A stretch of DNA of 13,809 bases from Leeuwenhoekiella sp. MAR_2009_132. GTDB lineage: Bacteria > Bacteroidota > Bacteroidia > Flavobacteriales > Flavobacteriaceae. Below, piece after piece: positions 1 to 13,809 of this stretch. The stretch covers positions 1 to 13,809 of the forward strand of contig NZ_JHZY01000005.1 in assembly GCF_000687915.1 (NCBI RefSeq), given 5' to 3'. Both the position numbers and the translations under genes were made by a program. Position 1 is the first letter of the stretch, and each line of letters opens with the position of its first letter. The notes under the pieces are model-generated. The model was not told where the DNA came from. It worked only from the letters and a program-made list of their open reading frames with translations, and did not search any database.

Positions 1-99
1 ATTGTTACCTGTAGTGGTGTTCCATCTGTATAATCCTCAGGATTGGTTGCAGTACCATCAGCAAAGGTGATGTCTACTACAATATCCTCATAACTTGGT
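1..99 (-). CDS. Continuation of the giant Calx-beta protein past a frameshift, partial at the window edge
   Basis: After the one-base loss at 99-100, the correct reading frame continues to position 1 without a stop. It encodes the middle of repeat unit 28, with the same sequence as the other units (PSYEDIVVDITFADGTAT, then PEDYTDGTPLQVTI). The gene is therefore cut by the window edge, not ended. More Calx-beta units and a C-terminal sorting domain are expected beyond it, but cannot be seen. Confidence 0.8.
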
Positions 100-3000
100 T
101 ATCTAAAGTCACTACAAAGACTGCATCTGCTCCTTCTGCTACGGTTACATCTGCAATAGTAATAGTTGGTGCTGCGCCGTCATTGTCGGTGATTGTTCCG
201 GTTCCGGTTGCACTTGGAGCCGCTGTAGTTCCACTAGCTACCGTTCCCGTTACCGTAAAGTTTTCGTCTACTTCAAATAAAGCATCGTCTACTGTTGGGA
301 ACGTGATTGGTCCACTGGTAGTCTGTCCCGCTGGGATTGTTACCTGTAGCGGTATTCCGTCTGTATAATCCTCAGGATTGGTTGCAGTACCATCAGCAAA
401 GGTGATGTCTACTACGATATCCTCATAACTTGGTTTATCTAAAGTCACTACAAAGACTGCATCTGCTCCTTCTGCTACTGTTACATCTGCAATAGTAATA
501 GTTGGTGCTGCACCGTCATTGTCGGTGATTGTTCCGGTTCCAGTTGCACTTGGAGCCGCTGTAGTTCCACTAGCTACTGTTCCCGTTACCGTAAAGTTTT
601 CGTCTACTTCAAATAAAGCATCGTCTACTGTTGGGAACGTGATTGGTCCACTGGTAGTCTGTCCCGCAGGGATTGTTACCTGTAGTGGTGTTCCATCTGT
701 ATAATCCTCAGGATTGGTTGCAGTACCATCAGCAAAGGTGATGTCTACTACGATATCCTCATAACTTGGTTTATCTAAAGTCACTACAAAGACTGCATCT
801 ACTCCTTCTGCTACTGTTACATCTGCAATAGTAATAGTTGGTGCTGCACCGTCGTTGTCGGTGATTGTTCCGGTTCCGGTTGCACTTGGAGCTGCTGTAG
901 TTCCACTAGCTACTGTTCCCGTTACCGTAAAGTTTTCGTTTACTTCAAATAAAGCATCGTCTACTGTTGGGAACGTGATTGGTCCGCTGGTAGTCTGTCC
1001 CGCTGGGATTGTTACCTGTAGCGGTGTTCCGTCTGTATAATCCTCAGGATTGGTTGCAGTACCATCAGCAAAGGTGATGTCTACTACGATATCCTCATAA
1101 CTTGGCTTATCTAAAGTCACTACAAAGACTGCATCTACTCCTTCTGCTACTGTTACATCTGCAATAGTAATAGTTGGTGCTGCACCGTCATTGTCGGTGA
1201 TTGTTCCGGTTCCGGTTGCACTTGGAGCTGCTGTAGTTCCACTAGCTACTGTTCCCGTTACCGTAAAGTTTTCGTTTACTTCAAATAAAGCATCGTCTAC
1301 TGTTGGGAACGTGATTGGTCCACTGGTAGTCTGTCCCGCTGGGATTGTTACCTGTAGCGGTGTTCCATCTGTATAATCTTCAGGATTGGTTGCAGTACCA
1401 TCAGCAAAGGTGATGTCTACTACGATATCCTCATAACTTGGCTTATCTAAAGTCACTACAAAGACTGCATCTGCTCCTTCTGCTACTGTTACATCTGCAA
1501 TAGTAATAGTTGGTGCTGCACCGTCATTGTCGGTGATTGTTCCAGTTCCGGTTGCATTTGGAGCTGCTGTAGTTCCACTAGCTACTGTTCCCGTTACCGT
1601 AAAGTTTTCGTTTACTTCAAATAAAGCATCGTCTACTGTTGGGAACGTGATTGGTCCACTAGTAGTCTGTCCCGCAGGGATTGTTACCTGTAGCGGTGTT
1701 CCGTCTGTATAATCCTCAGGATTGGTTGCAGTACCATCAGCAAAGGTGATGTCTACTACAATATCCTCATAACTTGGCTTATCTAAAGTCACTACAAAGA
1801 CTGCATCTGCTCCTTCTGCTACTGTTACATCTGCAATAGTAATAGTTGGTGCTGCGCCGTCATTGTCGGTGATTGTTCCAGTTCCGGTTGCATTTGGAGC
1901 TGCTGTAGTTCCACTAGCTACTGTTCCCGTTACCGTAAAGTTTTCGTTTATTTCAAATAAAGCATCGTCTACTGTTGGGAACGTGATTGGTCCGCTGGTA
2001 GTCTGTCCCGCAGGGATTGTTACCTGTAGCGGTGTTCCATCTGTATAATCCTCAGGATTGGTTGCAGTACCATCAGCAAAGGTGATGTCTACTACGATAT
2101 CCTCATAACTTGGTTTATCTAAAGTCACTACAAAGACTGCATCTACTCCTTCTGCTACTGTTACATCTGCAATAGTAATAGTTGGTGCTGCGCCGTCATT
2201 GTCGGTGATTGTTCCGGTTCCGGTTGCACTTGGAGCTGCTGTAGTTCCACTAGCTACTGTTCCCGTTACCGTAAAGTTTTCGGCTACTTCAAATAAAGCA
2301 TCGTCTACTGTTGGGAACGTGATTGGTCCGCTGGTAGTCTGTCCCGCTGGGATTGTTACCTGTAGCGGTGTTCCGTCTGTATAATCCTCAGGATTGGTTG
2401 CAGTACCATCAGCAAAGGTGATGTCTACTACGATATCCTCATAACTTGGTTTATCTAAAGTCACTACAAAGACTGCATCTACTCCTTCTGCTACTGTTAC
2501 ATCTGCAATAGTAATAGTTGGTGCTGCACCGTCATTGTCGGTGATTGTTCCGGTTCCGGTTGCACTTGGAGCTGCTGTAGTTCCACTAGCTACTGTTCCC
2601 GTTACCGTAAAGTTTTCGTCTACTTCAAATAAAGCATCGTCTACTGTTGGGAACGTGATTGGTCCGCTGGTAGTCTGTCCCGCTGGGATTATTACCTGTA
2701 GCGGTGTTCCGTCTGTATAATCCTCAGGATTGGTTGCAGTACCATCAGCAAAGGTGATGTCTACTACGATATCCTCATAACTTGGTTTATCTAAAGTCAC
2801 TACAAAGACTGCATCTACTCCTTCTGCTACTGTTACATCTGCAATAGTAATAGTTGGTGCTGCACCGTCGTTGTCGGTGATTGTTCCGGTTCCAGTTGCA
2901 CTTGGAGCTGCTGTAGTTCCACTAGCTACCGTTCCCGTTACCGTAAAGTTTTCGTTTACTTCAAATAAAGCATCGTCTACTGTTGGGAACGTGATTGGTC

Positions 3001-6000
3001 CGCTGGTAGTCTGTCCCGCAGGGATTGTTACCTGTAGCGGTGTTCCATCTGTATAATCTTCAGGATTGGTTGCAGTACCATCAGCAAAGGTGATGTCTAC
3101 TACGATATCCTCATAACTTGGTTTATCTAAAGTCACTACAAAGACTGCATCTACTCCTTCTGCTACTGTTACATCTGCAATAGTAATAGTTGGTGCTGCA
3201 CCGTCATTGTCGGTGATTGTTCCGGTTCCGGTTGCATTTGGAGCTGCTGTAGTTCCACTAGCTACTGTTCCCGTTACCGTAAAGTTTTCGTCTACTTCAA
3301 ATAAAGCATCGTCTACTGTTGGGAACGTGATTGGTCCGCTGGTAGTCTGTCCCGCAGGGATTGTTACCTGTAGCGGTGTTCCATCTGTATAATCCTCAGG
3401 ATTGGTTGCAGTACCATCAGCAAAGGTGATGTCTACTACGATATCCTCATAACTTGGTTTATCTAAAGTCACTACAAAGACTGCATCTACTCCTTCTGCT
3501 ACTGTTACATCTGCAATAGTAATAGTTGGTGCTGCACCGTCATTGTCGGTGATTGTTCCAGTTCCGGTTGCATTTGGAGCTGCTGTAGTTCCACTAGCTA
3601 CTGTTCCCGTTACCGTAAAGTTTTCGTTTACTTCAAATAAAGCATCATCTACTGTTGGGAACGTGATTGGTCCGCTGGTAGTCTGTCCCGCTGGGATTGT
3701 TACCTGTAGCGGTGTTCCATCTGTATAATCTTCAGGATTGGTTGCAGTACCATCAGCAAAGGTGATGTCTACTACGATATCCTCATAACTTGGCTTATCT
3801 AAAGTCACTACAAAGACTGCATCTGCTCCTTCTGCTACTGTTACATCTGCAATAGTAATAGTTGGTGCTGCACCGTCATTGTCGGTGATTGTTCCAGTTC
3901 CGGTTGCATTTGGAGCTGCTGTAGTTCCACTAGCTACTGTTCCCGTTACCGTAAAGTTTTCGTTTACTTCAAATAAAGCATCGTCTACTGTTGGGAACGT
4001 GATTGGTCCGCTGGTAGTCTGTCCCGCAGGGATTGTTACCTGTAGCGGTGTTCCGTCTGTATAATCCTCAGGATTGGTTGCAGTACCATCAGCAAAGGTG
4101 ATGTCTACTACGATATCCTCATAACTTGGTTTATCTAAAGTCACTACAAAGACTGCATCTGCTCCTTCTGCTACTGTTACATCTGCAATAGTAATAGTTG
4201 GTGCTGCGCCGTCATTGTCGGTGATTGTTCCGGTTCCAGTTGCACTTGGAGCTGCTGTAGTTCCACTAGCTACTGTTCCCGTTACCGTAAAGTTTTCGTT
4301 TACTTCAAATAAAGCATCGTCTACTGTTGGGAACGTGATTGGTCCGCTGGTAGTCTGTCCCGCAGGGATTGTTACCTGTAGCGGTGTTCCATCTGTATAA
4401 TCCTCAGGATTGGTTGCAGTACCATCAGCAAAGGTGATGTCTACTACGATATCCTCATAACTTGGTTTATCTAAAGTCACTACAAAGACTGCATCTACTC
4501 CTTCTGCTACTGTTACATCTGCAATAGTAATAGTTGGTGCTGCGCCGTCATTGTCGGTGATTGTTCCGGTTCCGGTTGCACCTGGAGCTGTTGTAGTTCC
4601 ACTAGCTACTGTTCCCGTTACCGTAAAGTTTTCGGCTACTTCAAATAAAGCATCGTCTACTGTTGGGAACGTGATTGGTCCGCTGGTAGTCTGTCCCGCT
4701 GGGATTGTTACCTGTAGCGGTGTTCCATCTGTATAATCCTCAGGATTGGTTGCAGTACCATCAGCAAAGGTGATGTCTACTACGATATCCTCATAACTTG
4801 GTTTATCTAAAGTCACTACAAAGACTGCATCTGCTCCTTCTGCTACTGTTACATCTGCAATAGTAATAGTTGGTGCTGCGCCGTCATTGTCGGTGATTGT
4901 TCCGGTTCCAGTTGCACTTGGAGCTGCTGTAGTTCCACTAGCTACTGTTCCCGTTACCGTAAAGTTTTCGGCTACTTCAAATAAAGCATCGTCTACTGTT
5001 GGGAACGTGATTGGTCCGCTGGTAGTCTGTCCCGCAGGGATTGTTACCTGTAGTGGTGTTCCGTCTGTATAATCCTCAGGATTGGTTGCAGTACCATCAG
5101 CAAAGGTGATGTCTACTACGATATCCTCATAACTTGGTTTATCTAAAGTCACTACAAAGACTGCATCTACTCCTTCTGCTACTGTTACATCTGCAATAGT
5201 AATAGTTGGTGCTGCGCCGTCGTTGTCGGTGATTGTTCCGGTTCCGGTTGCACTTGGAGCTGCTGTAGTTCCACTAGCTACTGTTCCCGTTACCGTAAAG
5301 TTTTCGGCTACTTCAAATAAAGCATCGTCTACTGTTGGGAACGTGATTGGTCCGCTGGTAGTCTGTCCCGCTGGGATTGTTACCTGTAGCGGTGTTCCAT
5401 CTGTATAATCCTCAGGATTGGTTGCAGTACCATCAGCAAAGGTGATGTCTACTACGATATCCTCATAACTTGGTTTATCTAAAGTCACTACAAAGACTGC
5501 ATCTGCTCCTTCTGCTACTGTTACATCTGCAATAGTAATAGTTGGTGCTGCGCCGTCATTGTCGGTGATTGTTCCGGTTCCAGTTGCATTTGGAGCTGCT
5601 GTAGTTCCACTAGCTACTGTTCCCGTTACCGTAAAGTTTTCGGCTACTTCAAATAAAGCATCGTCTACTGTTGGGAACGTGATTGGTCCACTGGTAGTCT
5701 GTCCCGCTGGGATTGTTACCTGTAGTGGTGTTCCGTCTGTATAATCTTCAGGATTGGTTGCAGTACCATCAGCAAAGGTGATGTCTACTACGATATCCTC
5801 ATAACTTGGTTTATCTAAAGTCACTACAAAGACTGCATCTACTCCTTCTGCTACTGTTACATCTGCAATAGTAATGGTTGGTGCTGCGCCGTCATTGTCG
5901 GTGATTGTTCCGGTTCCGGTTGCACCTGGAGCTGCTGTAGTTCCACTAGCTACTGTTCCCGTTACCGTAAAGTTTTCGGCTACTTCAAATAAAGCATCGT

Positions 6001-9000
6001 CTACTGTTGGGAACGTGATTGGTCCACTGGTAGTCTGTCCCGCAGGGATTGTTACCTGTAGTGGTGTTCCATCTGTATAATCCTCAGGATTGGTTGCAGT
6101 ACCATCAGCAAAGGTGATGTCTACTACGATATCCTCATAACTTGGTTTATCTAAAGTCACTACAAAGACTGCATCTACTCCTTCTGCTACTGTTACATCT
6201 GCAATAGTAATGGTTGGTGCTGCGCCGTCATTGTCGGTGATTGTTCCAGTTCCGGTTGCATTTGGAGCTGCTGTAGTTCCACTAGCTACTGTTCCCGTTA
6301 CCGTAAAGTTTTCGGCTACTTCAAATAAAGCATCGTCTACTGTTGGGAACGTGATTGGTCCACTGGTAGTCTGTCCCGCTGGGATTGTTACCTGTAGCGG
6401 TGTTCCATCTGTATAATCCTCAGGATTGGTTGCAGTACCATCAGCAAAGGTGATGTCTACTACGATATCCTCATAACTTGGTTTATCTAAAGTCACTACA
6501 AAGACTGCATCTACTCCTTCTGCTACTGTTACATCTGCAATAGTAATAGTTGGTGCTGCACCGTCGTTGTCGGTGATTGTTCCGGTTCCAGTTGCACTTG
6601 GAGCTGCTGTAGTTCCACTAGCTACTGTTCCCGTTACCGTAAAGTTTTCGTTTACTTCAAATAAAGCATCGTCTACTGTTGGGAACGTGATTGGTCCGCT
6701 GGTAGTCTGTCCCGCTGGGATTGTTACCTGTAGCGGTGTTCCGTCTGTATAATCCTCAGGATTGGTTGCAGTACCATCAGCAAAGGTGATGTCTACTACG
6801 ATATCCTCATAACTTGGTTTATCTAAAGTCACTACAAAGACTGCATCTACTCCTTCTGCTACTGTTACATCTGCAATAGTAATAGTTGGTGCTGCACCGT
6901 CATTGTCGGTGATTGTTCCGGTTCCGGTTGCACTTGGAGCTGCTGTAGTTCCACTAGCTACTGTTCCCGTTACCGTAAAGTTTTCGTTTACTTCAAATAA
7001 AGCATCGTCTACTGTTGGGAACGTGATTGGTCCACTGGTAGTCTGTCCCGCTGGGATTGTTACCTGTAGCGGTGTTCCATCTGTATAATCTTCAGGATTG
7101 GTTGCAGTACCATCAGCAAAGGTGATGTCTACTACGATATCCTCATAACTTGGCTTATCTAAAGTCACTACAAAGACTGCATCTGCTCCTTCTGCTACTG
7201 TTACATCTGCAATAGTAATGGTTGGTGCTGCACCGTCATTGTCGGTGATTGTTCCAGTTCCGGTTGCATTTGGAGCTGCTGTAGTTCCACTAGCTACTGT
7301 TCCCGTTACCGTAAAGTTTTCGGCTACTTCAAATAAAGCATCGTCTACTGTTGGGAACGTGATTGGTCCGCTGGTAGTCTGTCCCGCAGGGATTGTTACC
7401 TGTAGCGGTGTTCCGTCTGTATAATCCTCAGGATTGGTTGCAGTACCATCAGCAAAGGTGATGTCTACTACGATATCCTCATAACTTGGTTTATCTAAAG
7501 TCACTACAAAGACTGCATCTACTCCTTCTGCTACTGTTACATCTGCAATAGTAATGGTTGGTGCTGCGCCGTCATTGTCGGTGATTGTTCCAGTTCCGGT
7601 TGCATTTGGAGCTGCTGTAGTTCCACTAGCTACTGTTCCCGTTACCGTAAAGTTTTCGGCTACTTCAAATAAAGCATCGTCTACTGTTGGGAACGTGATT
7701 GGTCCACTGGTAGTCTGTCCCGCAGGGATTGTTACCTGTAGCGGTGTTCCGTCTGTATAATCCTCAGGATTGGTTGCAGTACCATCAGCAAAGGTGATGT
7801 CTACTACGATATCCTCATAACTTGGTTTATCTAAAGTCACTACAAAGACTGCATCTACTCCTTCTGCTACTGTTACATCTGCAATAGTAATAGTTGGTGC
7901 TGCACCGTCATTGTCGGTGATTGTTCCGGTTCCGGTTGCACCTGGAGCTGCTGTAGTTCCACTAGCTACTGTTCCCGTTACCGTAAAGTTTTCGTCTACT
8001 TCAAATAAAGCATCGTCTACTGTTGGGAACGTGATTGGTCCACTGGTAGTCTGTCCCGCAGGGATTGTTACCTGTAGCGGTGTTCCGTCTGTATAATCCT
8101 CAGGATTGGTTGCAGTACCATCAGCAAAGGTGATGTCTACTACGATATCCTCATAACTTGGTTTATCTAAAGTCACTACAAAGACTGCATCTACTCCTTC
8201 TGCTACTGTTACATCTGCAATAGTAATAGTTGGTGCTGCACCGTCATTGTCGGTGATTGTTCCAGTTCCGGTTGCATTTGGAGCTGCTGTAGTTCCACTA
8301 GCTACTGTTCCCGTTACCGTAAAGTTTTCGGCTACTTCAAATAAAGCATCGTCTACTGTTGGGAACGTGATTGGTCCACTGGTAGTCTGTCCCGCTGGGA
8401 TTGTTACCTGTAGCGGTGTTCCGTCTGTATAATCCTCAGGATTGGTTGCAGTACCATCAGCAAAGGTGATGTCTACTACGATATCCTCATAACTTGGTTT
8501 ATCTAAAGTCACTACAAAGACTGCATCTACTCCTTCTGCTACTGTTACATCTGCAATAGTAATAGTTGGTGCTGCACCGTCGTTGTCGGTGATTGTTCCG
8601 GTTCCAGTTGCACTTGGAGCTGCTGTAGTTCCACTAGCTACTGTTCCCGTTACCGTAAAGTTTTCGTTTACTTCAAATAAAGCATCGTCTACTGTTGGGA
8701 ACGTGATTGGTCCACTGGTAGTCTGTCCCGCTGGGATTGTTACCTGTAGCGGTGTTCCATCTGTATAATCTTCAGGATTGGTTGCAGTACCATCAGCAAA
8801 GGTGATGTCTACTACGATATCCTCATAACTTGGCTTATCTAAAGTCACTACAAAGACTGCATCTGCTCCTTCTGCTACTGTTACATCTGCAATAGTAATA
8901 GTTGGTGCTGCACCGTCATTGTCGGTGATTGTTCCAGTTCCGGTTGCATTTGGAGCTGCTGTAGTTCCACTAGCTACTGTTCCCGTTACCGTAAAGTTTT

Positions 9001-12000
9001 CGTTTACTTCAAATAAAGCATCGTCTACTGTTGGGAACGTGATTGGTCCGCTGGTAGTCTGTCCCGCAGGGATTGTTACCTGTAGCGGTGTTCCGTCTGT
9101 ATAATCCTCAGGATTGGTTGCAGTACCATCAGCAAAGGTGATGTCTACTACGATATCCTCATAACTTGGTTTATCTAAAGTCACTACAAAGACTGCATCT
9201 ACTCCTTCTGCTACTGTTACATCTGCAATAGTAATAGTTGGTGCTGCACCGTCATTGTCGGTGATTGTTCCGGTAGTTGAAACCGTTAAATTTCTTGTAT
9301 TATTAGTTTGAACACTTCCTTGAATGTTGAAAACTTCAGAGTTCTCATATATTATATCCTCTAAAGAATTTACAACATAATTAGCTGTCAATTGACCCGC
9401 AGGAATTGTAATAATCTGATTAACTGCTGCTGTATAATCTAATCCCGCAGTCGCAGAAACATCAGAAGTATTTACTTGTATCACTACATCTTCTGTAGAA
9501 ACATCACTTATAGTAAAAACAAATTGAAGAGGCTGTCCTTCAACTACCTGTACAGGCTGAACCGATAAAGTAGGATCTGCAGCAACTAAAATTCTAACAG
9601 TTGCCGTTGAACATTCTCTATCAGAAATTGGAGAATCTGCGTCACAAATTTGATATGTAAATAAGTCATTCCCAAAATAATCTGCATTAGGAGTATACGT
9701 GAAAAAGTCATCACTTAAATCTCCCGGAGTACCATTATTATTTGGAGTCAATGTTCCATTTGATGGGCCAGAAACTACAGATAAACTGCCAGGTCCATCA
9801 TTACCAAAATCATCATTTACTAGTACAGTAAGAGGATTATTTTGAGAATCTTCAGAAACTGTATATTGATCATCTTGAGCCCTTGGTGAATCATCTAAAA
9901 TTCCTATACGAACAACTGCTGTATCACAATCACCATCTGAATCACAAATCTGATAGGTTAATTGAACAGGTACTAAATTAAGTAATGGAGGATTATAAGT
10001 AATAAAATCATCTGTTGGATCATTAGGAGTACCTGAGTTATTAACAACTGCAGAACCTACTGCTGGTTGAGATACAATTGTTATAGTTCCTGTTGATGGA
10101 CCATCAGGGCCAAAAATATCATTCTCAAGAACTCTAATGTTAACCGGTTGAATAGGTCTTAAAGGACTTGCCTGAGCCGCATCATCCTGAGCCAAAGGCC
10201 TTCCATCATCAACAAAATTATTCTGACAAGTTGACATTAAATTTACAACTCTAGTAATTTTATTAAAATCAGGCCCACCATCAGCATCACTAATACTTAC
10301 ATAATTTTCAAGATCTGTTTCAGTAATCGTATATGTTACATCTACTAATGCTGAAGGTATTGAAGTTTGATATCTATAGTTACCATTTATATCAGTACTC
10401 AAGGTAGCAGAACTTCCATCTGTACCAGTAATATTTACTTTTACACCTCTCAAAGGATCTCCACCTTCATCAGAAACATTACCACAGATAACAGGAGCTG
10501 TTACTATAGTAGATTGCGGATTTGCATAATTAGCATTTTTGAGAGCTAGTGAATAATACCTGTCGCTATTACCGTTTTCTTTACCTATTGTATAATTAAG
10601 TTTTGATTTGCCCTCCCAATAATTACTAAAAGTATAACGAGCATCTGAAGAAATATCCCCTCCAGGTGCAGTAGTAGGATTAATAGCTGTACCGCGTACA
10701 GAACCTATTTTTCTTTGAATAGAAATCCGAGTATCTGCCGATTGGTAATACGCATCAGGCAAACTTAACTCTGCATACTCACGGGTTCTCTGACTATCAC
10801 CATCAATATCAAATGGGGTTCCAAAAAATGAAATAACCACCTCATTTCCATAATTCCCTCCACCAGTTACAAATGTGATTTCAAATTCCACACTTTGATC
10901 TCCATTTGTAGAACTCTTAATTTGTGGCTGAAAGTTTGCAGGCACACCTTGTCCAGCTACATCTATATTTAATAAAGAAGCACCGTTATTAAATTTAACG
11001 ATTTTTACAAGTGCATCTATAGGAGAAGGACTATCTGTAAATACATTTGAGAACCTATAAACAGCACCCGGCTGAAGATTAGTCCCAGATATTTTAACCG
11101 GATTTACAAAATTAGAATTTTGATAAAATGGAGCACAATCACAATTACGCTGACCCGGGGGAGTAACGATTACATTAGATACTGTAACGTCAACAGTAGC
11201 TGTACTCGTATCACCATTTGCATCTTTTATTGTATATGTGAAAGAATCTGAACCCACATATCCTAAAGCTGGTGTATATAAAATAGTATCATCAGTAGGA
11301 TCATTAGGTGTACCATTAGTATCTACAACCGCTGTACCATTTGAAGGATTGCTAGCAACCACAATAGCCTGAGAGGCAGGACCATCACCACCAAAATTAT
11401 CATTGATAACAACGTCAATATTTAAAGGACTATCAACTTGTGTACTTGCACTATCATTTACCGCAGTTGGCTTACACGCCCCACTCGCAACAAGAGTAAT
11501 ACGTGATGGCTGTAAGTTTCCTACAGGACACGCACCTGATAATGCTGAAGATGAAAGTGTTGTTTTTTGAGTGGTATTTTTTACACCTCTATAGTTAGCA
11601 TTTAATTGTAGATTAAATTGAGTTCCAGCTAGAGAACAATCTGAAGATGCTTTCAAATCAAAACCAACAGAAAGAACAGCATCACCCACTTCAACTATAT
11701 TATCTGCAAATCCAAAATTTAGCGTTCTTGTTCCTGCTACATAATTAACAGTTACGCCAGCTGGAAGAAGACTTGCATTGGGCACATAATTTACAGAGGA
11801 AGGTACTACATATGAAATTGATAAATTTTTCATATCGTCATTACCAAAGTTCTTCACCTGAAAAGTTGCACGAACGGTCTGATCAATAATTAATTCATTT
11901 TGAGCTCCTAAATTTGTGGTCAATAATAAAGGAGAAAGCTCTGGCTCATACACTTCAACAGCGAGACCCACCATATATAAACTGTATGTCTCCTGAGTAG

Positions 12001-12226
12001 AAGTTAATCTTAAAATCGTACTTGTCTGATCATTACCTAGTAGACTATTATTAGGATTATTAAGTGTAAAAACACCTGCATCAAAACCTAATGTATTTGT
12101 ACTTGCAGGAACTCTATTAGTAACATCCTGACCATATCTGGTAATTTTACTATTAAAAAAGTTATCTTCAGGTCTTAGTGCTGTACTTATATCTGTATAA
12201 GAATTAGAAGCATTTCTAATTTGCAA
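77..12226 (-). CDS. Giant Calx-beta repeat surface protein (adhesin-like), main open segment
   Basis: This is the central 4,049-codon segment of one giant exported protein. The TTG at 12226 is not a real start: the frame continues upstream, and the N terminus lies in another frame (12283-13064). Corrected residue numbers count from the ATG at 13064. A DUF11-like beta domain spans about 375-500. An Ig/cadherin-like domain (PTAVNDSA, then NDNFGGDGP, FTYTIKDANGD) spans 531-630. An unassigned beta-rich module covers 640-855, and a carboxypeptidase-regulatory-like domain (VICGNVSDEGGDPLRGVKV) follows at 857-950. Two more Ig/cadherin-like domains lie at 956-1163. A divergent Calx-beta domain occupies 1164-1272, and identical-length Calx-beta units run from 1273 to the end. 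Calx-beta domains form beta-sandwiches that often bind calcium; each unit ends in TDND and contains PEDYTDGT and VDDALFE. Long arrays of this kind in Bacteroidota are typically cell-surface or secreted adhesins exported by type IX secretion (inference; the sorting domain would be off the left edge). The TAG at 77-79 results from a one-base loss at 99-100, not a true end. Confidence 0.93.
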   Translation of the reverse strand: MQIRNASNSYTDISTALRPEDNFFNSKITRYGQDVTNRVPASTNTLGFDAGVFTLNNPNNSLLGNDQTSTILRLTSTQETYSLYMVGLAVEVYEPELSPLLLTTNLGAQNELIIDQTVRATFQVKNFGNDDMKNLSISYVVPSSVNYVPNASLLPAGVTVNYVAGTRTLNFGFADNIVEVGDAVLSVGFDLKASSDCSLAGTQFNLQLNANYRGVKNTTQKTTLSSSALSGACPVGNLQPSRITLVASGACKPTAVNDSASTQVDSPLNIDVVINDNFGGDGPASQAIVVASNPSNGTAVVDTNGTPNDPTDDTILYTPALGYVGSDSFTYTIKDANGDTSTATVDVTVSNVIVTPPGQRNCDCAPFYQNSNFVNPVKISGTNLQPGAVYRFSNVFTDSPSPIDALVKIVKFNNGASLLNIDVAGQGVPANFQPQIKSSTNGDQSVEFEITFVTGGGNYGNEVVISFFGTPFDIDGDSQRTREYAELSLPDAYYQSADTRISIQRKIGSVRGTAINPTTAPGGDISSDARYTFSNYWEGKSKLNYTIGKENGNSDRYYSLALKNANYANPQSTIVTAPVICGNVSDEGGDPLRGVKVNITGTDGSSATLSTDINGNYRYQTSIPSALVDVTYTITETDLENYVSISDADGGPDFNKITRVVNLMSTCQNNFVDDGRPLAQDDAAQASPLRPIQPVNIRVLENDIFGPDGPSTGTITIVSQPAVGSAVVNNSGTPNDPTDDFITYNPPLLNLVPVQLTYQICDSDGDCDTAVVRIGILDDSPRAQDDQYTVSEDSQNNPLTVLVNDDFGNDGPGSLSVVSGPSNGTLTPNNNGTPGDLSDDFFTYTPNADYFGNDLFTYQICDADSPISDRECSTATVRILVAADPTLSVQPVQVVEGQPLQFVFTISDVSTEDVVIQVNTSDVSATAGLDYTAAVNQIITIPAGQLTANYVVNSLEDIIYENSEVFNIQGSVQTNNTRNLTVSTTGTITDNDGAAPTITIADVTVAEGVDAVFVVTLDKPSYEDIVVDITFADGTATNPEDYTDGTPLQVTIPAGQTTSGPITFPTVDDALFEVNENFTVTGTVASGTTAAPNATGTGTITDNDGAAPTITIADVTVAEGADAVFVVTLDKPSYEDIVVDITFADGTATNPEDYTDGTPLQVTIPAGQTTSGPITFPTVDDALFEVNENFTVTGTVASGTTAAPSATGTGTITDNDGAAPTITIADVTVAEGVDAVFVVTLDKPSYEDIVVDITFADGTATNPEDYTDGTPLQVTIPAGQTTSGPITFPTVDDALFEVAENFTVTGTVASGTTAAPNATGTGTITDNDGAAPTITIADVTVAEGVDAVFVVTLDKPSYEDIVVDITFADGTATNPEDYTDGTPLQVTIPAGQTTSGPITFPTVDDALFEVDENFTVTGTVASGTTAAPGATGTGTITDNDGAAPTITIADVTVAEGVDAVFVVTLDKPSYEDIVVDITFADGTATNPEDYTDGTPLQVTIPAGQTTSGPITFPTVDDALFEVAENFTVTGTVASGTTAAPNATGTGTITDNDGAAPTITIADVTVAEGVDAVFVVTLDKPSYEDIVVDITFADGTATNPEDYTDGTPLQVTIPAGQTTSGPITFPTVDDALFEVAENFTVTGTVASGTTAAPNATGTGTITDNDGAAPTITIADVTVAEGADAVFVVTLDKPSYEDIVVDITFADGTATNPEDYTDGTPLQVTIPAGQTTSGPITFPTVDDALFEVNENFTVTGTVASGTTAAPSATGTGTITDNDGAAPTITIADVTVAEGVDAVFVVTLDKPSYEDIVVDITFADGTATNPEDYTDGTPLQVTIPAGQTTSGPITFPTVDDALFEVNENFTVTGTVASGTTAAPSATGTGTITDNDGAAPTITIADVTVAEGVDAVFVVTLDKPSYEDIVVDITFADGTATNPEDYTDGTPLQVTIPAGQTTSGPITFPTVDDALFEVAENFTVTGTVASGTTAAPNATGTGTITDNDGAAPTITIADVTVAEGVDAVFVVTLDKPSYEDIVVDITFADGTATNPEDYTDGTPLQVTIPAGQTTSGPITFPTVDDALFEVAENFTVTGTVASGTTAAPGATGTGTITDNDGAAPTITIADVTVAEGVDAVFVVTLDKPSYEDIVVDITFADGTATNPEDYTDGTPLQVTIPAGQTTSGPITFPTVDDALFEVAENFTVTGTVASGTTAAPNATGTGTITDNDGAAPTITIADVTVAEGADAVFVVTLDKPSYEDIVVDITFADGTATNPEDYTDGTPLQVTIPAGQTTSGPITFPTVDDALFEVAENFTVTGTVASGTTAAPSATGTGTITDNDGAAPTITIADVTVAEGVDAVFVVTLDKPSYEDIVVDITFADGTATNPEDYTDGTPLQVTIPAGQTTSGPITFPTVDDALFEVAENFTVTGTVASGTTAAPSATGTGTITDNDGAAPTITIADVTVAEGADAVFVVTLDKPSYEDIVVDITFADGTATNPEDYTDGTPLQVTIPAGQTTSGPITFPTVDDALFEVAENFTVTGTVASGTTTAPGATGTGTITDNDGAAPTITIADVTVAEGVDAVFVVTLDKPSYEDIVVDITFADGTATNPEDYTDGTPLQVTIPAGQTTSGPITFPTVDDALFEVNENFTVTGTVASGTTAAPSATGTGTITDNDGAAPTITIADVTVAEGADAVFVVTLDKPSYEDIVVDITFADGTATNPEDYTDGTPLQVTIPAGQTTSGPITFPTVDDALFEVNENFTVTGTVASGTTAAPNATGTGTITDNDGAAPTITIADVTVAEGADAVFVVTLDKPSYEDIVVDITFADGTATNPEDYTDGTPLQVTIPAGQTTSGPITFPTVDDALFEVNENFTVTGTVASGTTAAPNATGTGTITDNDGAAPTITIADVTVAEGVDAVFVVTLDKPSYEDIVVDITFADGTATNPEDYTDGTPLQVTIPAGQTTSGPITFPTVDDALFEVDENFTVTGTVASGTTAAPNATGTGTITDNDGAAPTITIADVTVAEGVDAVFVVTLDKPSYEDIVVDITFADGTATNPEDYTDGTPLQVTIPAGQTTSGPITFPTVDDALFEVNENFTVTGTVASGTTAAPSATGTGTITDNDGAAPTITIADVTVAEGVDAVFVVTLDKPSYEDIVVDITFADGTATNPEDYTDGTPLQVIIPAGQTTSGPITFPTVDDALFEVDENFTVTGTVASGTTAAPSATGTGTITDNDGAAPTITIADVTVAEGVDAVFVVTLDKPSYEDIVVDITFADGTATNPEDYTDGTPLQVTIPAGQTTSGPITFPTVDDALFEVAENFTVTGTVASGTTAAPSATGTGTITDNDGAAPTITIADVTVAEGVDAVFVVTLDKPSYEDIVVDITFADGTATNPEDYTDGTPLQVTIPAGQTTSGPITFPTVDDALFEINENFTVTGTVASGTTAAPNATGTGTITDNDGAAPTITIADVTVAEGADAVFVVTLDKPSYEDIVVDITFADGTATNPEDYTDGTPLQVTIPAGQTTSGPITFPTVDDALFEVNENFTVTGTVASGTTAAPNATGTGTITDNDGAAPTITIADVTVAEGADAVFVVTLDKPSYEDIVVDITFADGTATNPEDYTDGTPLQVTIPAGQTTSGPITFPTVDDALFEVNENFTVTGTVASGTTAAPSATGTGTITDNDGAAPTITIADVTVAEGVDAVFVVTLDKPSYEDIVVDITFADGTATNPEDYTDGTPLQVTIPAGQTTSGPITFPTVDDALFEVNENFTVTGTVASGTTAAPSATGTGTITDNDGAAPTITIADVTVAEGVDAVFVVTLDKPSYEDIVVDITFADGTATNPEDYTDGTPLQVTIPAGQTTSGPITFPTVDDALFEVDENFTVTGTVASGTTAAPSATGTGTITDNDGAAPTITIADVTVAEGADAVFVVTLDKPSYEDIVVDITFADGTATNPEDYTDGIPLQVTIPAGQTTSGPITFPTVDDALFEVDENFTVTGTVASGTTAAPSATGTGTITDNDGAAPTITIADVTVAEGADAVFVVTLDNQVMRIL
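99..100 (-). other. One-base deletion in repeat unit 28
   Basis: All 27 complete units have GGTTTATCT or GGCTTATCT at this place on the plus strand. Here it is GGTTATCT, one base short. The loss shifts the frame from VVTLDKPSYED to VVTLDNQVMRIL and a stop at 77. The units provide an internal control, so the missing base is certain as a difference; whether it is biological is not. Confidence 0.93.
9251..9577 (-). repeat. Divergent first Calx-beta domain capping the array
   Basis: About 109 residues starting DPTLSVQPVQVVEGQ have the Calx-beta order: VEGQPLQFVFTIS, then ATAGLDYTA, TIPAGQL, YENSEVFNI and GTITDND. It aligns in plan with the 112-residue units, but nearly all of its DNA is different and AT-richer. 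The exception is the last 24 bases (9251-9274), which match the repeat units exactly. It is probably an older domain that the homogenising process does not reach. Confidence 0.85.
10505..11150 (-). other. Unassigned beta-rich module within the giant protein (about residues 640-855)
   Basis: This stretch lies between an Ig/cadherin-like domain and a carboxypeptidase-regulatory-like domain. It begins with NCDCAPFYQ and continues with VYRFSNVFTDSPSPIDALVKI, LLNIDVAGQG, VEFEITFVTGG, VVISFFGTPFDIDGDSQR and then EYAELSLPDAYY. Alternating hydrophobic residues suggest a beta-sandwich. The paired cysteines (Cys-x-Cys) near its start, and FDIDGDSQ, could form a disulfide and a calcium site respectively (inference). 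I recall similar stretches in other large secreted flavobacterial proteins but cannot name a family. It ends around SLALKNANYANPQ, before the VICGNV of the next domain. Confidence 0.5.
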
Positions 12227-12282
12227 TCTATCTCCAGTTAAATCACGATCACCTTCTAAAGCTCCAAATACAACATCAGCAT

Positions 12283-13064
12283 TTACCGCCCAACAGGAAT
12301 AGTTCTAAAACCTTCAACACGTATATCGTAATTATTCTCTCCATTATTACGAGTAACATTAGCAAAACCATCAAATATGGTCACATTTCTTGCAGGAAGA
12401 TTGGTGTTTTCATAAACGACAACAATCTGCCATCCGGCAGAAGCTCCAATAATATCGCCACCATTAGCACCTTGATGACCTATGATCGTTCCGGTTTTGG
12501 CTTCGACGTTTGCCACAGTATAACTACCAGTATAATCGCCAATACCTTGAACCAGTGATGTAATATCTTTTACACAAGCATAAGGATCATTAGAAAAATG
12601 CTCAGTACGACCTCTATACAAAACTTCATCAGCAGTTACCGTTGTATATGCTGTTTGTCTTGGTAACTTTAGTTTTACCTGATTGTAATTCCAATTAGGT
12701 TGATTATCTGAAGAATTTCTATCTCCAGGCTCCTTATCTCCTGCTGTCCAGTACAAATAGACCTTGCGTATAGACACACAAGATCCAGTACCCACAGAAC
12801 TTAGAGACGCACTACTCGAGTTAAAAGTAGTCACATCTGAATCTATATCTACATAAACATTATCTTGAAAGTTATGATTGCCATCTTCACCTGTATAAGC
12901 TGAAGTAGCAGTTCTAGACATGTTATTATTGGCAATGGTAGTAAAATTACCACGCAATGTTTCAGAATAACGCACATCAAATGAGTTCTTAAGCTGAGCC
13001 TGCCCAGTAAAAATCCCACCAACAATAAGAAACCCTAAAAGGGAGAGAGTAATTTTATTTTCAT
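12283..13064 (-). CDS. N-terminal part of the giant surface protein (signal peptide plus DUF3344-like domain), frameshifted
   Basis: This is the 5' end of the giant gene. The ATG at 13064 lies 6 bases after the stop of the upstream small gene. As written it reads only 9 codons before TAG. Adding one A to the A run at 13058-13061 gives M-K-N-K, then a hydrophobic stretch ITLSLLGFLIVGGIF, then GQAQ: a standard Sec signal peptide with cleavage before or after the final Gln. The frame then stays open to 12283. Without the repair the first possible start is a GTG at 12975, which would leave an exported protein with no signal peptide. Residues 30-260 carry VYLYWTAGDKEPGDR, then GANGGDIIGASAGW, IVVVYE and NVTIFDGFANV. 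This pattern resembles the DUF3344-type domain seen at the N terminus of many large secreted Bacteroidota proteins (recognised from memory, not by search). The TAA at 12283-12285 follows IPVGR. One extra G in the run at 12289-12291 gives IPVGAVNADVVFGALEGDRD and joins the frame of the main segment. Confidence 0.85.
12289..12291 (-). other. Probable one-base deletion in a G run of the giant gene
   Basis: On the minus strand GTTGGGCGGTAAATGC stops at TAA (12283-12285). One more G gives GTT GGG GCG GTA AAT GC, reading V-G-A-V-N-A. It connects the N-terminal domain to the downstream frame, whose first residues (DVVFGALEGDRDLTGDRLQI) are plausible coding sequence upstream of the TTG at 12226. Confidence 0.8.
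13058..13061 (-). other. Probable one-base deletion just after the start codon of the giant gene
   Basis: The minus strand reads ATGAAAATAAAATT, giving a 9-codon peptide ending in TAG. With five A residues after ATG it would read M-K-N-K-I-T and continue into a textbook signal peptide and the rest of the gene. A length error in this A run, or in the A run at 13053-13056, would account for it. Confidence 0.75.
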
Positions 13065-13070
13065 AAGGTT

Positions 13071-13379
13071 TTATTTGAAGTTTGATGCGTTCGGATTAAG
13101 TTGTTTTATAATCACTGATGCCGCATCGGCGTTTGACCCTTGTGGTGTAGCAATAACTTCCACACAACTCCAAGAGCTATTTTGTATATTATCTTTCTTG
13201 ATAGTTCTTAAAATAAACTCAGCATTAGAGCCCGCAGCGATATCAATTTTAGATATAGAAACTCCTTCTAATGACAATAATTCAAACTCAACACTTGAAC
13301 TTGGGAGACTATCTTCATTACACGTAATAGATTTTGCTGATAAACTTAAATTTTCAACTTTTGCAGTAGAATTTTCAAT
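13071..13379 (-). CDS. Small secreted protein of unknown function, C-terminal part
   Basis: This is the second half of the small exported protein, open from 13379 (IENSTAKVENLSLSAKSITC) to the TAA at 13071-13073 after NPNASNFK. The TTG at 13277 is an internal leucine, not a start: the frame is open and well conserved in style for 34 codons before it. Joined to the first half, the protein would be about 173 residues. The mature part looks beta-rich, with segments such as SVEFELLSL, SISKIDIAAG, AEFILRTI and SCVEVIAT. It has two cysteines in this half (in SITCNED and SWSCVEV) that could pair outside the cytoplasm. Its stop lies only 6 bases before the ATG of the giant gene, so the two are almost certainly cotranscribed. 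A helper, anchoring or partner role for the giant protein is possible but purely contextual. Confidence 0.7.
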   Translation of the reverse strand: MENSTAKVENLSLSAKSITCNEDSLPSSSVEFELLSLEGVSISKIDIAAGSNAEFILRTIKKDNIQNSSWSCVEVIATPQGSNADAASVIIKQLNPNASNFK

Positions 13380-13592
13380 TTACAAAATAATCTATCTGTT
13401 TTGCAGTTATACCTATACCTTCTTGACGAGTATATTCAATCGTTAATAAACTAGAAGATTGTCCCGGCCCCTCAGATAAGGCATTCTGGGCGTAAAAAAT
13501 GCTGCTAAACATCATAAATACGGAAATCAGAATTAAGCGAGGTAGATTTGCTAACACAAAAAGTTATCAAAAACTGAAGTTTTATTATTCAT
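13375..13592 (-). CDS. Small secreted protein of unknown function, N-terminal part (signal peptide), frameshifted
   Basis: This is the first half of a gene just upstream of the giant protein. I do not recognise its family. The open frame begins at a GTG at 13557 and reads LANLPRLILISVFMMFSSIF, then YAQNALSEGPGQSSS. That is a clear Sec signal peptide with likely cleavage after Ala or Gln of YAQ. An ATG at 13592 lies 35 bases upstream, one base out of frame. One more base in the A run at 13558-13562 would join it, giving MNNKTSVFDNFF before the hydrophobic segment. I favour the ATG start modestly; GTG at 13557 also gives a usable signal peptide. The frame stops at TGA 13375-13377 after IDYFVN. 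The other half of the protein continues in a different frame from 13379, so the gene is broken here by one base. Removing one A from the run at 13379-13381 gives IDYFVIENSTAKVENLSL and reconnects the halves. Confidence 0.72.
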
Positions 13593-13762
13593 AGTAGGTT
13601 AAGTTGTAGATATACGTAAAAAATTACTTTAGCGTTTTAGAACTATTGTAAATAATTTTATAATTTATTTTGAGATAATATCAGAACCTACTTTAAAAGA
13701 AGAACCAATAATACTCTATTAATATAATAAGCCCCGTTCTAAAATTATTCAGAAATAGGGTA
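13593..13762. other. AT-rich intergenic region upstream of the two-gene unit
   Basis: The region has multiple stops on both strands and no RNA gene that I can recognise. It should contain the promoter of the minus-strand unit. I found no convincing Bacteroidota-type promoter: a TAATTTTT lies near 13620 on the minus strand, but no well-spaced TTG element precedes it. A weak inverted repeat at 13731-13760 (CCCCGTTCT against AGAAATAGGG, loop about 10) has mismatches and no T run, so I do not call it a terminator. Confidence 0.5.
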
Positions 13763-13809
13763 ATGAACGTATTAAGTTGGGTGGCACAATATATTAATCG
13801 ATTAAGTGA
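13763..13809 (+). CDS. Possible start of a divergent plus-strand gene, cut by the window edge
   Basis: An ATG at 13763 opens 15 codons (MNVLSWVAQYINRLS) with no stop before the window ends. The peptide is a plausible amphipathic or membrane-proximal N terminus, but a 15-codon open run is common by chance. An AGGG lies too close to the ATG to be a convincing ribosome site. If real, it would be transcribed away from the small secreted-protein gene. I do not assign a function. Confidence 0.25.
   Translation, partial: MNVLSWVAQYINRLS

Follow-up and report, generated by a model that had tools for sequence, protein, structure and literature searches.

Tandem-domain stalks on bacterial surfaces are known in general from the Periscope Proteins (SasG, Rib, Sgo_0707, CdrA and CshA; PMC8201768, PMC9704523, in the parts available). 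In Flavobacterium johnsoniae and Porphyromonas gingivalis, type B proteins bind a PorP/SprF-like partner, and those linked to PorE have been postulated to be fixed to the cell wall and non-mobile (PMC9143113, PMC12618676, likewise in part). Here we describe a Calx-beta repeat array from Leeuwenhoekiella sp. MAR_2009_132. It lies on contig NZ_JHZY01000005.1, whose 13,809 bp were analysed as a whole and are called the window. We read the window as a redundant contig that carries the upstream flank, the N-terminal part and most of the Calx-beta stalk of a giant type IX-secreted surface protein, the units of which have been homogenized and shuffled by recombination. We assign this reading a probability of about 0.72.

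Tandem Repeats Finder reports a single array in the window, at 1-9274, with a period of 336, 27.6 copies, 97% matches and 0% indels. Cut in the coding frame of the minus strand, it yields 27 complete units from 9238 down to 167, with every spacing exactly 336 bp. Mean pairwise DNA identity among these units is 97.8% (range 95.8–99.7%); all 27 are distinct in DNA, and they encode 15 distinct protein sequences. An initial annotation of the window had described 27 complete Calx-beta units of constant length and nearly identical DNA, in an array running off the edge, and each part of that description holds. The units score above the curated cut-off of PF03160 (Pfam) and belong to the Calx-beta fold, and within the genome all 36 places among the PF03160 matches listed reach at least 27 bits. 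The acidic residues of the DD...E..E motif are conserved in the alignment, and the units may bind calcium. A chance origin of such a 9-kb array is excluded.

The genome consists of five contigs (4.28 Mb), and the window is the entirety of one of them, C5. Its unique part is also present at the right end of C4 (2.3 Mb) and on C3 (20.1 kb); the gene start on C5 was set by alignment to the ATG at position 2825 of C3. The window holds the following features.

167..9238, minus strand: 27 complete Calx-beta units of 336 bp (112 codons), from repeat finding, PF03160 and unit alignment
1..166, minus strand: partial 28th unit, truncated at the contig end and one base short near 100, from the unit consensus
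9254..9562, minus strand: diverged first Calx-beta domain before the regular array, from PF03160 (27 bits, equal to the cut-off)
9593..13064, minus strand: N-terminal part of the giant protein, about 530 residues without a Pfam family and then about 630 with Big_9; frame broken near 12291 and 13056
13072..13592, minus strand: upstream open reading frame of 174 amino acids with no Pfam family at E 0.1; intact on C3 and C4, interrupted in C5

The differences between units carry a record of how the array evolves. Twenty-five sites vary among the 27 units, 18 of them informative (common to at least two units), and the variants occur in mosaic combinations. In a four-gamete test, 115 of the 153 informative site pairs show all four combinations. 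Linkage between sites has a mean r2 of 0.13 within 20 bp and of 0.03–0.06 beyond, where independent sites would give 0.038. Against 5,000 permutations, no lag between 1 and 15 was conspicuous (fractions 0.10 to 0.965), and no higher-order repeat emerged in C5; the five units of C3 look alternating but are too few. The ratio of nonsynonymous to synonymous differences among units (pN/pS) is 0.17. All seven singleton differences are G:C to A:T relative to the majority, so they look like mutation rather than read error, and alleles held by just 2 to 4 of the 27 units persist. From this pattern we infer an older array that was reshuffled by short exchanges, not a freshly amplified one. Recombination between units would keep them alike while exchanging stretches shorter than a unit, purifying selection would preserve the protein, and unit number would be expected to change in steps of 112 residues.

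The complete gene is seen on C3. This contig bridges both flanks, leading from the end of C4 through the gene to the start of C2 (1.9 Mb), and the gene thus sits at the unclosed join of C4 and C2. There it forms one open frame from the ATG at 2825 to a stop at 15925, encoding 4,366 amino acids. A frame of at least 4,355 codons, as initially annotated, is not continuous in C5 because single-base gaps break it; the longest open frame in the window (77-12226, TTG start) has 4,049 codons. The first 24 residues of the protein resemble a Sec signal peptide by eye; for the first 530, searches found neither a Pfam family (E 0.1) nor a PDB relative (E 0.01). PF03160 matches six stretches of the C3 protein. 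Past the window, on C3 and C2, the gene continues with a Big_9 array, two DUF7507 stretches and a type B sorting domain (CHU_C, 90.8 bits, cut-off 27; TIGR04131, 40.0 bits, cut-off 35). Directly downstream is a PorP/SprF-like gene (PF11751, 295 bits; TIGR03519, 278.8 bits, cut-off 90.55), followed by a PorE-like OmpA/PD40 gene (329.6 bits).

Judged by these sequence matches, the locus comprises a Calx-beta array, on C3 a Big_9 array and a type B sorting domain, and adjoining PorP/SprF-like and PorE-like genes; the predicted product is secreted by the type IX system (type B) and has stalks built of Calx-beta and Big_9 domains. Work on relatives suggests how it might be displayed. The protein would exit through the type IX system. 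The PorP/SprF-like barrel encoded next door would hold its C-terminal domain, and the OmpA protein resembling PorE would anchor this to the cell wall. The Calx-beta units would then serve as a stalk that places the N-terminal part at a distance from the cell, probably for attachment. By analogy with the type B, PorP/SprF and PorE arrangement of those relatives, the protein would act as a fixed surface stalk.

We compared the locus across 13 Leeuwenhoekiella genomes, including this one (G000). An N-terminal query at E 0.001 finds matches in 11 of them; by coordinates and identity ten carry the gene, and G010 has a distant paralogue only. Unit comparison covered four species. Partial or cut units were dropped (unit 28 of G000, and those of G006 and G004), the diverged last units of C3 and of MED217 (G003) were grouped separately, G001 supplied about 1.5 units with its partial unit 2 restored, and the unit pattern matched nothing in G002, G005, G009 and G012. 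Within groups, the proportion of synonymous differences (pS) between units is 0.058 in the own genome, 0.050 in G007 and 0.024 in G001 (one pair, one unit partial); in three subgroups of MED217 it is 0.057, 0.000 (one pair) and 0.27. Between the own array and the regular units of other species it is 0.25–0.63, with 0.54 for G007 and 0.58–0.63 for MED217, and rpoC gives 0.48–0.67 in the seven genomes compared. Units that are alike within arrays or subarrays and diverged between species point to concerted evolution. Together with the mosaic of unit variants, this supports the continuous homogenization that the initial annotation had offered as one explanation.

Two side observations concern the same gene. 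Between the own genome and G001 (L060), pS is 0.25 for the Calx-beta units, 0.63 for residues 531–1158, 0.48 for rpoC, 0.76 for prfC and 0.61–0.69 for four further parts of the gene, the PorP/SprF-like gene and the PorE-like gene. Unit exchange between the two lineages would explain the low value, which comes from the roughly 1.5 G001 units compared; constraint on synonymous sites is less likely, since the units of G007 and MED217 are not equally low. In three of the ten genomes (G001, G002 and G003; L074, L076, L021) the locus lacks a match to the first 530 residues but keeps the part that follows; the N-terminal part looks like an exchangeable module.

Several points weigh against our reading of the window. 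The sole gene-spanning contig, C3, carries five units and the last one, against 27 complete units in C5. The second array is uneven as well: anchors of the 876-bp Big_9 super-unit number six on C3 and five on C2, where their spacing is irregular. A contrast array in the same genome, made of 267-bp units of another giant gene and closed within C4, is far less shuffled (17 of 78 four-gamete pairs) than the array of C5, and the well-shuffled array is the one that the assembler left unclosed. Polishing with reads from other units could create false mosaics. In MED217 the subgroups differ from one another at pS 0.56–0.70, as much as species do, and the first three units differ at 0.27; homogenization there acts locally on subarrays, not array-wide. 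Finally, the match to the PorE model falls below its cut-off of 600, and structure models were poor in four of five cases, and the inter-unit angle is not reliable.

Some of these points belong to an alternative in which the long array of C5, or its mosaic, was made by assembling or polishing reads of a shorter array such as the five units plus last of C3. We consider this unlikely, and the caution in the initial annotation that unit number may be a matter of assembly was well placed. C3 and C5 are two redundant versions of one Leeuwenhoekiella locus. The unique flanks of C5, C3 and C4 match apart from single-base gaps, and on that ground we rejected the idea that the window comes from a second place in the genome. 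The 354 bp preceding unit 1 are the same in C3 and C5, and agreement continues to nucleotide 143 of unit 1, after which five sites differ. Single bases are missing from C5 relative to C3 at eight places from 12291 to 13789, two of them in the gene (near 12291 and 13056), and the shortfall in the partial 28th unit puts a gap at the other end too. Tandem repeats are a known cause of assembly errors (PMC6868369, in the part available).

Against an artefact stands the integrity of the 27 complete units, none of which contains a base gap; the single-base gaps are probably contig-end errors. Alleles confined to 2 to 4 of the 27 units have survived, which speaks against a false mosaic, since polishing or majority calling from mixed reads would tend to remove them. 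The C5 array stops, in its 28th unit, short of the diverged last unit, and that of C3 is identical to the one at the start of C2 over the 330 bp compared. Units 3 and 5 of C3 are closest to unit 27 of C5 and unit 2 is closest to unit 26, which suggests that the two contigs reach into the same distal end of the array; units 1 and 4, however, resemble unit 18 most, and along C5 as a whole there is just a weak trend (rho -0.35, p 0.07). In this comparison the row for the last Calx unit of C3 aligned poorly (51.5% identity), because the G001 stretch does not include that unit. C3 could be either an allele that has shortened or an assembly that has collapsed. Contigs also end inside the Calx-beta units in seven of the ten genomes with the gene (G000, G001, G002, G004, G005, G006 and G007), as expected of arrays too uniform to assemble. 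Counting the ends in G011 (near a Big_9 domain) and G008 (in a stretch judged by eye), contigs end inside the gene in nine of ten. MED217 alone spans the array; it has 11 units at regular spacing and, further along, a run of N. Separately, the final 12 kb of C2 (G000:C2:1907632-1919631, L012) contain a stretch of about 2.5 kb twice, with 0 mismatches and 16 gaps, perhaps another unclosed or mobile piece.

A second alternative concerns function: the protein could be a mobile gliding adhesin of the SprB type instead of a fixed stalk. A type B sorting domain with a PorP/SprF-like gene directly downstream recalls the SprB/SprF pair. However, a Pfam scan of the C3 protein at E 0.001 found no SprB-repeat family (PF13573, which we take to be the SprB repeat). 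A PorE-like gene, although below the model cut-off, also follows here, whereas the sprB/sprF pair has none and PorE-linked type B proteins are the ones postulated to be non-mobile (PMC9143113, in the part available). An SprB-type role therefore appears quite improbable to us.

Very recent amplification of one unit or block, which the initial annotation had offered alongside homogenization, is hard to credit: the 97.8% identity and exact spacing would suit it, but all 27 units are distinct, 18 of 25 variable sites are shared in mosaic and no lag stands out, whereas the 267-bp array of the other giant gene, with 12 distinct sequences among 20 units, does look recently expanded and looks different.

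That other gene (G000:C4:1760000-1774000, L073) has an open frame of 8,851 amino acids with a type B sorting domain and holds arrays of 267 bp x 20 (98%), 276 bp x 6 (97%) and 300 bp x 9.4 (91%). In G006, a gene of matching repeat periods (G006:C10:1-16000, L072) has units that are 74–78% identical; homogeneity in this gene varies either between lineages or between assemblies.

Near-identity of Calx-beta units was also examined more widely. We computed repeat periods for 22 chosen proteins, the window's own included, drawn from a scan that scored 1,689 candidates (120 of 828 matches listed) and from the 104 length-limited matches described below. Calx-beta repeats had been said usually to diverge between units. 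This is true of 17 of the 21 other proteins, in which adjacent-unit identity is below 0.74 or no regular array is present; near-identity is not unique to this locus, however, as identity reaches at least 0.96 in the remaining four, and it recurs in other species of the genus. Near-identical Calx-beta arrays are a minority. The four are a Kordia algicida protein with about 21 units and three Flavobacterium psychrophilum proteins (P0108, P0112 and P0111), which combine a Calx-beta array with a CHU_C domain and lie on contigs of 2.7–2.9 Mb. These three have 22, 20 and 17 units, respectively, spaced by exactly 109 residues, with mean unit identities of 0.998, 0.998 and 1.000 when the last unit of each is left out. 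The aligned flanks of the 22- and 17-unit pair are identical. A change of length by whole units, as initially proposed, is seen between F. psychrophilum records; in the own species it is only hinted at by C3 and C5, a difference that may be an assembly fault. Among 104 matches (proteins of 0.55–1.75 times the length of the C3 protein, the own entry P0003 aside), no other strain of the own species was recognizable.

One may go further and view the array as a recombining population of units within one gene, in which sub-unit swaps outpace mutation and bring sites near linkage equilibrium, long and short alleles coexist in the culture (C5 and C3), and the pool of units has crossed species (G001). 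We hold this fuller picture to be doubtful. If our reading of the window is right, the idea of a variable-length stalk extends to type IX-secreted Calx-beta proteins of marine Bacteroidota. The gene is one at which assemblies break, and are hence hidden, in most genomes of this search. Orthologous, separately homogenized arrays in one genus would allow the homogenization of tandem domains, and the rate of change in unit number, to be measured in bacteria.

Among the papers available for searching, none joins Calx-beta with Leeuwenhoekiella, or Calx-beta with type IX secretion and an adhesin, and two pair Calx-beta with Flavobacterium; those on concerted evolution dealt mostly with eukaryotes. 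Pseudoalteromonas tunicata, which lies outside the Bacteroidota, has a comparable protein in BapP. Like the protein described here, this marine biofilm adhesin contains Calx-beta and Big_9 beta-sandwich domains with predicted calcium binding; it differs in having twelve beta-sandwich repeats of three classes, seven of them Calx-beta-like, and an N-terminal beta-propeller (PMC12153261, in the part available). The operons of F. johnsoniae that encode a type B C-terminal domain (CTD), PorP/SprF and a PorE-like protein, and SprB/SprF, share the sorting domain and gene order (PMC9143113, PMC12618676, as far as available); their stalk domain content is different. The F. psychrophilum proteins share the Calx-beta array and the CHU_C type IX domain. 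Their units are 109 rather than 112 residues long and even more uniform; the comparison covers the array and the CHU_C domain. Repeat-number variation of an F. psychrophilum 'gliding motility-associated protein' has been published (PMC8400371), although the available text does not use 'Calx' and the gene may be another one.

The Periscope Proteins give the general class its name. They too are single-chain surface proteins with a long stalk of tandem, highly identical beta-sandwich-type domains, and intragenic recombination has been proposed to alter their unit number (PMC8201768, PMC9704523, in the parts available). In the main texts of these two papers, datasets aside, 'Calx' and 'Flavobacter' are absent, as is 'Bacteroidetes' from the first and 'Bacteroid' from the second. 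The array described here is a long series of highly identical folded domains; its unit number differs between C3 and C5 in one genome, where assembly may be at fault, and varies in F. psychrophilum. What sets it apart is the Calx-beta domain, type IX export and a PorP/SprF-like partner. Stalks of this kind are already known, and the Leeuwenhoekiella protein probably adds to the Periscope Protein kind a new member with Calx-beta domains and type IX export.

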